Origin: Meiothermus sp. Pnk-1
GTDB taxonomy: Bacteria > Deinococcota > Deinococci > Deinococcales > Thermaceae
Direction of reading: 5' to 3'
Length of the DNA stretch: 64,000 nt
Assembly (NCBI RefSeq): GCF_003226535.1
Contig: NZ_QKOB01000010.1
Coordinates: 62,001-126,000 of the forward strand
A program made the translations under genes and the position numbers. The notes under the pieces were generated by a model. That model worked only from the letters and a program-made list of their open reading frames with translations. It was not told the origin of the DNA and ran no database searches. Each line of letters opens with the position of its first letter. The first letter of the stretch is position 1. Positions 13,426 to 54,859 of the stretch are shown piece after piece.

Positions 13426-13580
13426 TGGCTACTGGTGGTCTGGTAACGAGGCTTGCGCACTTTTCCCTGCTAGGAGAGGACGATCCACCGCGTTTTGCGT
13501 CTTGCGTTTAGGGTATGGCGTATACAACCCCACCCTAGTACGTCCCCCGTCGTACGTCGAACGCAGGGGATCGGTCCCCC

Positions 13581-13704
13581 GGGTGTACGGAGCTTGCTCC
13601 GTCCCGACAGGGGATCGTCCCTCGGGTGTACGGCGGTACGCCGTCCCGAAGGGAATCTACCCTAGGTGTACCGGCTCCGCCAGTCCCGATAGGGGATCGT
13701 CTCC
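13581..13704. repeat. Repeat island A: three double-hairpin units
   Basis: Three units of about 41 bp lie in tandem (13581-13622, 13624-13663, 13664-13704). Each reads GGTGTAC, then a variable hairpin, GTCCCGA, then a second small hairpin of the type GGGAATCTACCC. The first stems differ (CGGAGCTTGCTCCG, CGGCGGTACGCCG, CCGGCTCCGCCAG) yet nearly all positions still pair. The stretch 13426-13973 holds no gene I can support. Confidence 0.85.
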
Positions 13705-13800
13705 CGCGTTTAGCGTAAGACGTACAGCGTACGACGTATGACCTAAGTCACGTCTTGCGTTTTGCGTATTGCGTATGACGTACGACGTAGGACGTATACC
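13705..13800. repeat. GCGTTTAGCGT / GACGTACGACGTA degenerate tract, island A
   Basis: A run of GCGTTTAGCGT, GCGTTTTGCGTATTGCGTA and TACGACG-type words with a period near 7 bases follows the double-hairpin units. The same tract follows the units in islands B and C. Shorter versions occur at 13490-13520, 18445-18475 and 39535-39560. Confidence 0.75.
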
Positions 13801-35427: not shown

Positions 35428-35508
35428 GGGCAACACCGGCGTAGGGGAATAATCCGCCGCGTCCTAGTACGTCCTACGTCATACGTCGAACGAAGGGAAT
35501 CTACCCCC

Positions 35509-35683
35509 AGGTGTACCGGCCCTGCCGGTCCCGACAGGGAATCTACCCCAGGTGTACGGGCACCGCCCGTCCCGAAGGGAATCTACCCCCGCGTTTAGCG
35601 TCCCTGCCGGTCCCGACAGGGAATCTACCCCAGGTGTACGGGCACCGCCCGTCCCGAAGGGAATCTACCCCCGCGTTTAGCGT
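35509..35683. repeat. Repeat island B: double-hairpin units with a perfect 82-bp tandem duplication
   Basis: Units at 35509-35549 (stem CCGGCCCTGCCGG) and 35550-35590 (stem ACGGGCACCGCCCGT) are followed by GCGTTTAGCGT. The block 35520-35601 is then repeated base for base at 35602-35683. A lone half unit (GAAGGGAATCTACCCCC) precedes the first unit at 35492-35508. The stretch 35428-35839 contains no gene I can support. Confidence 0.88.
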
Positions 35684-35800
35684 AAGACGTACGACGTAAG
35701 CCGCGTTTAGCGTTTTGCGTACGACGTACGACGTATGACCTAAGTCGCGTTTAGCGTCTGGCGTTTTGCGTATTGCGTACGACGTACAGCGTACGACATC
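35684..35800. repeat. GCGTTTAGCGT / GACGTACGACGTA degenerate tract, island B
   Basis: The same tract as in islands A and C follows the double-hairpin units, with several TACGACG words, GCGTTTTGCGTATTGCGTA and GTATGACCTAAGTC, which is also found in island A. Confidence 0.75.
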
Positions 35801-54444: not shown

Positions 54445-54474
54445 GTCCAACTGCACAAGTTGGACGTCTTTTTG
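54445..54474 (+). terminator. tRNA-Pro terminator
   Basis: GTCCAACT-GCACA-AGTTGGAC (54445-54465) forms a perfect 8-bp stem followed by GTCTTTTTG. Confidence 0.9.
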
Positions 54475-54543
54475 TTCTCCCTTGGCCTGGGGTCTGGTAA
54501 CTCAGATGTCATACGTCTAACGTCAAAGAAGGGAATCTACCCC

Positions 54544-54656
54544 TAGGTGTACGAGCTTTGCTCGTCCCGCCAGGGAATCTATCCTCCGGGTGTACGGAGT
54601 TTGCTCCGTCCCGAGACGCTTCCTTCGCCGCCAGTAGGCGGGGTAGGGAATCTACC
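54544..54656. repeat. Repeat island C: double-hairpin units
   Basis: Two units with stems ACGAGCTTTGCTCGT (54544-54587) and CGGAGTTTGCTCCG (from 54588) follow a half unit at 54528-54544. The second unit is broken by about 30 unrelated bases before its closing TAGGGAATCTACC near 54644-54656. The stretch 54475-54859 holds no gene I can support. Confidence 0.82.
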
Positions 54657-54665
54657 AAAAAACCC

Positions 54666-54778
54666 CCGCGTTTAGCGTCTGGCGTTTTGCGTATTGCGTA
54701 TGACGTACGACGTACGACGTAGGACGTATACCAACATACCAACCCCACCCCAGCCCTCCCCTGCTAGGGGAGGGAGAG
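54666..54778. repeat. GACGTA tract and CTCCCCTGCTAGGGGAG module, island C
   Basis: CGCGTTTAGCGTCTGGCGTTTTGCGTATTGCG-type words (54666-54735) are followed by the palindromic CTCCCCTGCTAGGGGAG module (54744-54778), the same order as in island A, about 41 kb away. Confidence 0.78.
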
Positions 54779-54859
54779 AGCATCCTGCGTATAGCGTACT
54801 TGCCCCCACCACCGAAAAGAGGTGGCTGGTGGGTGCTCGCTTCGGGTATCCTGACCCGG

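Follow-up and report, generated by a model that had tools for sequence, protein, structure and literature searches.

Short double-hairpin repeats in the Meiothermus sp. Pnk-1 genome change the stem sequence of their first hairpin and keep it paired, which raises the question of whether they are structures selected in RNA or copies of an element that moves. We analysed a 64-kb stretch of this genome (the window), in which a sequence-only reading had counted seven units in three islands. The pattern GGTGTAC-N9..16-GTCCCG matched eight times, all on the + strand and spread over three islands, compared with a mean of 0.03 and a maximum of 1 in the dinucleotide-shuffled window. The islands are real, and they hold eight intact first hairpins plus one truncated unit rather than seven units.

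Repeat units in the window and across the Pnk-1 genome

Each unit has a first hairpin (GGTGTAC-stem-loop-stem-GTCCCGA) followed by a second motif, which had been described as constant and takes two forms, GGGAATCTACCC or GGGGATCGTCCCC. Units are arranged head-to-tail and all three islands are intergenic, following a 235-aa ORF, an argH-like gene and tRNA-Pro. A covariance model of the unit gave seven matches in the window by itself. When four window units and the topA copy were folded as single-stranded DNA, each of the five formed the first hairpin (z -1.3 to -2.9).

The features below are on the + strand, and each intact unit begins where its pattern match starts. Island 1 opens with a second-motif hairpin, GGGGATCGGTCCCCC (13566-13580), that no first hairpin precedes. 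Its unit 1 (13582-13621) joins CGGAGC-TT-GCTCCG (13582-13607) to GGGGATCGTCCC (13610-13621), unit 2 (13625-13662) joins CGGCG-GTA-CGCCG to GGGAATCTACCC, and unit 3 (13665-13705) joins CCGGC-TCC-GCCAG to GGGGATCGTCTCCC. The single stem mismatch reported at 13664-13704 was confirmed (CCGGC/GCCAG). In island 2, unit 1 (CCGGC-CCT-GCCGG with GGGAATCTACCCC; 35510-35549) and unit 2 (CGGGC-ACC-GCCCG with GGGAATCTACCCCC; 35551-35590) are followed by a truncated unit, the right part of unit 1 (35602-35631), which derives from an 82-nt tandem duplication (35520-35601/35602-35683), and by unit 3, a duplicate of unit 2 (35633-35672). Island 3 contains unit 1 (CGAGC-TTT-GCTCG with GGGAATCTATCC; 54546-54584), in which the generally constant flank GTCCCGA reads GTCCCGC, and unit 2 (54589-54656), made of CGGAG(T)-TT-(G)CTCCG, an extra hairpin module GACGCTTCCTTCGCCGCCAGTAGGCGGGGT and then GGGAATCTACC. 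Stem pairing had been described as otherwise complete, but this last unit has a G.T closing pair (CGGAGT/GCTCCG).

Inverted, degenerate heptad arrays surround the islands (32 matches to one heptad pattern versus 0.45 expected). With these arrays (TACGTCN / CGTNNGA around the units of island 1), island 1 covers 13539-13796 and island 2 covers 35468-35793. Arrays of the heptad CGTNNNR lie at 13539-13565, 13706-13796, 35468-35494, 35673-35793, 54512-54527 and 54663-54728, and both Calidithermus genomes contain dozens of matches to arrays of this kind. The arrays resemble the short tandem heptamer repeats of cyanobacteria.

Across the Pnk-1 genome, the exact pattern matched 122 times, compared with once for a reversed control pattern, and collecting copies with the covariance model, as the earlier reading had advised, gave 141 matches. 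Copy number is probably underestimated, because several assembly contigs (C1, C2, C7, C8 and C9) end in or near unit islands. Over the whole genome, the first-hairpin stems can be sorted into about seven discrete classes that are reused in differing orders, and array neighbours belong to the same class in only 2 of 50 cases (8.5 expected). Arrays are therefore mosaics and not simple tandem repeats; the neighbour classes rule out tandem duplication as their only source, although one such duplication exists in island 2.

A third hairpin module, GACGCTTCCTTCGCCGCCRGTAGGCGGGGT, sits precisely between the first and second hairpins of ten units in the ~0.8 Mb examined, including 54615-54644 in the window and loci L353, L360, L368, L372, L374, L375 and L382. 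In five units (L353, L362, L364, L368 and L383), the repeat GACGCCACCCCACGGCTTRCGCCGAAACAAGCGTC is joined straight onto GTCCCGA. A relative of the GACGCTTCCTTCGCCGCCRGTAGGCGGGGT module is also present on its own in a transposase, where it forms a 27-nt in-frame insertion that the other aligned copies lack. The solitary 27-nt module was found on an A. silvanus plasmid (L102) and on Pnk-1 contig C4 (L391), and probably represents another family of mobile hairpins of tiny size.

Insertion sites and reading frames in related genomes

The covariance model matched 18 of 61 genomes, all from the family of Pnk-1: its own genus, which includes Allomeiothermus silvanus, as well as Calidithermus and most Meiothermus. 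It had no match in 16 genomes of a Thermus-like genus or in 24 from other families. In a search for the core pattern across 84,980 species, real copies were confined to Meiothermus and Calidithermus; the 13 matches elsewhere all lacked the first hairpin and were counted as chance. Among plasmids the unit occurred only on the two of A. silvanus, and a search of viral contigs and phages found none. We found no earlier description of the unit in the open literature on Meiothermus genomes, type-strain genome papers included, with subscription literature covered in small part.

Most copies in relatives are solitary insertions and their usual location is intragenic, with 68 of 107 in putative open frames as assigned by GC3 bias rather than by expression. 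Host genes include topA, a ribonucleotide reductase, the intein of another ribonucleotide reductase, hpaB-like, TamB-like and VirD4-like genes, tnpB and a transposase. These names come mostly from sequence, with Pfam support for the topA copy, which lies within the topoisomerase domain, and the hpaB copy, which lies within HpaB_N.

The sequence-only reading had proposed comparing positions in relatives to see whether the units move, and this comparison gave empty sites, a 4-bp target duplication and the absence of one island. In topA, the empty site of M. ruber reads CCCCCA-GCGG-CGACC (CCCCCAGCGGCGACC), whereas the filled site of M. taiwanensis reads CCCCCA-GCGG-[38 nt]-GCGG-CGACC (CCCCCAGCGG-38 nt-GCGGCGACC); the insert is missing in all other aligned relatives. 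In a transposase family, the site CTGAT-CCCC-TGCGAC (CTGATCCCCTGCGAC, with small variants) is empty at eight loci, one of them in a Thermus-like genome, and filled at four, with a net gain of 42 nt. Both comparisons thus show a 38-nt insert plus a 4-bp target duplication. Consistent with movement, one shared locus has two units in A. silvanus and a Meiothermus and one in C. chliarophilus, a 42-nt step, and in the interval between tRNA-Pro and rsmD the 389 nt that comprise island 3 and its heptads (54450-54838) are replaced by 41 nt in A. silvanus.

Flanking sequences agree with the empty sites. Identical tetranucleotides flank 34 of 107 copies, compared with 10.9 in shuffles. Among solitary copies the figure is 24 of 60 (9.05 expected; maximum 17 in 10,000 shuffles), in which duplications of pure CCCC are indistinguishable from target preference. 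Since CCTC, CCAC, CCGC, CCCT and CCCA are also among the duplicated 4-mers, this is true duplication and not a preference for CCCC alone. The left flanking 4-mer starts with CC in 43 of 60 solitary copies.

As 38 plus 4 is 42, each insertion adds 14 codons. Length is divisible by three in 65 of 68 copies within putative ORFs of relatives, compared with 28 of 39 outside ORFs (P = 0.0008) and 69 of 114 in the Pnk-1 genome (P = 3e-8), where the islands seen are mostly intergenic. In relatives a longer first hairpin goes with a shorter linker (balanced lengths in 55 and 34 copies, unbalanced in 6 and 4); this balance is much weaker in Pnk-1 copies. Intragenic copies occur in both orientations and use all six frames, so no particular peptide is kept.

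Pairing of the first hairpin and the second motif

Covariation was assessed on two sets of distinct copies from other genomes (54 and 23), all with unedited rows; the covariance model (R1) was seeded with 19 rows, two of which carry hand-edited linker or flank letters. The first hairpin was paired in 93% and 99% of cells in the two sets. Two-sided changes numbered 30 cells (7.4 in shuffled controls) and 26 (7.8), nearly all of them in the first hairpin, and controls with a slid alignment all fell far below the real one. The proposal that first-hairpin stems change yet stay paired, and covary beyond chance, was therefore borne out in copies from other species. It does not extend to the second motif, which in the same sets paired partly and had almost no two-sided changes. 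The target duplication takes in both outer pairs of this motif; they are disrupted in about half of the copies, often where the target differs from CCCC.

Selection at the RNA level, the other part of the original proposal, was not supported, because one-sided changes to G.T were not clearly above those to A.C (9 versus 7 in relatives, 2 versus 4 in Pnk-1). As the stem classes are discrete, either selection or hairpin-templated copying could account for the kept pairing. It is somewhat doubtful that the paired changes are unselected, arising in mobile units from copying with one arm as template or from exchange between copies. The few intermediates between classes, the sharing of classes by several genera and the differing stems at one gene site with conserved surroundings would all fit such an origin. 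On the other hand, pairing is maintained across three genera, and one-sided changes persist in single copies, so that any correction is imperfect. The transposase site that carries different stems in different genomes could reflect repeated insertion, stem change or recombination.

Two further sets of copies bear on how units change. In the 3' part of tnpB, several genomes share a site occupied by one, two or three units whose stems differ (L082, L130, L134, L155 and L197), and this series is natural material for testing stepwise compensation. Genome G031 has tandem runs of four near-identical 42-nt units (C1:2536675-2536842) and of five 47-nt matches spaced 48 nt apart (C1:567162-567400), which suggests recent array growth by a different route.

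Possible routes of movement and relation to known elements

Precise insertion into genes with a 4-bp duplication, kept pairing of the first hairpin, kept frame within genes and the absence of island 3 in a sister species are all observed. We consider it probable that the units are copies of a non-autonomous mobile DNA element of ~38 bp that is recognised by its hairpin and has CC-rich targets. The element would comprise the first hairpin, GGTGYAC-stem-loop-stem-GTCCC, with an inner 4-6 bp free in sequence, a short linker and the right end GGGGATCGT; its targets would be CC-rich tetranucleotides (CCNN), duplicated on insertion for a net 42 nt. A host enzyme acting in trans may recognise the shape of the first hairpin and make a 4-nt staggered cut; base pairing between the GG of GGGGATCGT and the target CC is also possible and would account for the CC preference. 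The Pnk-1 arrays could have grown as new copies inserted one after another into the CC-rich right ends of older ones, with the heptad-repeat island as a tolerated landing zone for array growth and slippage afterwards. Counting against this explanation, a classical transposase needs terminal inverted repeats and the element is without them: the left end is YNGGTGYAC, and the reverse complement of the right end GGGGATCGT, ACGATCCCC, is unlike it.

Among other routes, it appears unlikely that the units are moved in single-stranded form, as short REP-like palindromes are, by a Y1 (HUH) transposase (IS200/IS605 or RAYT type). Recognition of a hairpin would suit such an enzyme, and Y1_Tnp (PF01797) was found in 9 of 11 carrier genomes searched compared with 1 of 12 non-carriers within the family, a co-occurrence that is weak because both groups are phylogenetically clustered. 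However, Y1 transposition, as in IS608 and ISDra2, leaves no target duplication, and the target here is a duplicated, variable tetranucleotide (CCCC, CCTC, CCAC, CCGC), unlike in IS200/IS605-derived elements. No Y1 gene was found in two carriers (G004 and G013), and none is flanked by units, not even the sole Y1 gene of Pnk-1; copies nearby lie in frame inside tnpB. We also considered the units as IS605 ends and dropped this idea, as units at the 3' end of tnpB lie within the gene and in frame, and the IS appears to bear another end hairpin. REP/RAYT elements and REPINs have a single palindrome with a GTAG or CGTC tag, are mostly extragenic and are tied to a Y1 transposase gene. The units resemble them as short multicopy palindromes that form arrays, but there is no adjacent RAYT gene, and although the window islands are intergenic, the copies in relatives are mostly intragenic and solitary.

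Copying through RNA, by reverse transcription of the hairpin RNA and integration of the product, a route put forward for yeast GC42 and the Allomyces elements, is very unlikely. Copy-and-paste spread to more than 100 copies and the compact, RNA-like structure are consistent with it. Yet only two of 31 family genomes searched, the carrier G006 and the non-carrier G019, had an RVT_1 (PF00078) match, and none was found in Pnk-1 with its 141 copies or in nearly all carriers; the lack of a clear G.U excess also argues against this route. The weakest reading, a structured or regulatory RNA (riboswitch, terminator or leader) retained at certain genes, was the first-stage reading of the repeats and fits a covarying hairpin located intergenically, but it is highly improbable given that the Rfam search of the window returned two tRNAs only, with nothing above gathering score at the islands, that the hairpins lack a following T-run, and that the gene contexts are unrelated and intragenic copies lie in both orientations and six frames.

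Returning to the hairpin-recognised DNA element, it is functionally akin to several known elements and fails a defining feature of most. Yeast mitochondrial GC42 elements are G+C-rich mobile hairpins of ~42 nt whose short flanking direct repeats look like target duplications (PMC4478555), and the title of a study cited there (Weiller et al. 1989) describes GC clusters as single elements and tandem arrays. The likeness is functional only: GC42 is mitochondrial, differs in sequence, is flanked by AG or ACT instead of 4 bp, and changes mostly in its loops with stems conserved, whereas here the stems vary in pairs. Rickettsia palindromic elements (RPEs) are likewise bacterial, palindromic and inserted in frame in unrelated genes (PMC10969869), but they are ~150 bp long with a conserved peptide and belong to another phylum with another sequence. 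The element belongs to neither the yeast GC clusters nor the RPEs. The suggested likeness to organelle double-hairpin elements (DHEs) holds at the level of function, in that the Allomyces mitochondrial elements (Paquin et al. 2000) are mobile with two adjacent hairpins; as cited in PMC2800124, they are reported without flanking duplications, unlike the units here, in which moreover only the first hairpin covaries. The Bpu elements of Cycas mitochondria are 36 bp long, with hundreds of copies and 4-bp terminal direct repeats (PMC8297867), but these repeats are fixed as AAGG and the sequence is almost invariant. Compared with MITEs, the target site duplication is present, but terminal inverted repeats shared with an autonomous transposon are not.

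We tentatively propose, as a possible mechanism, that the mobility signal consists essentially of a hairpin whose sequence is free and a right end of 9 nt. A host enzyme of undescribed type would act on this signal and cut CC-rich sites with a 4-nt stagger, with no part for terminal inverted repeats, a Y1 transposase or a reverse transcriptase, and hairpin-templated copying would replace one whole stem class by another. At 38 bp, the element would rank among the smallest mobile elements known in a bacterium, and its 14-codon insertions, such as that in the topoisomerase domain of topA, would be a source of protein insertions. It would also provide a free-living, culturable bacterial model, with genomes mostly lacking a reverse transcriptase, for the old problem of how tiny hairpin elements such as mitochondrial GC clusters, DHEs and RPEs are able to move.
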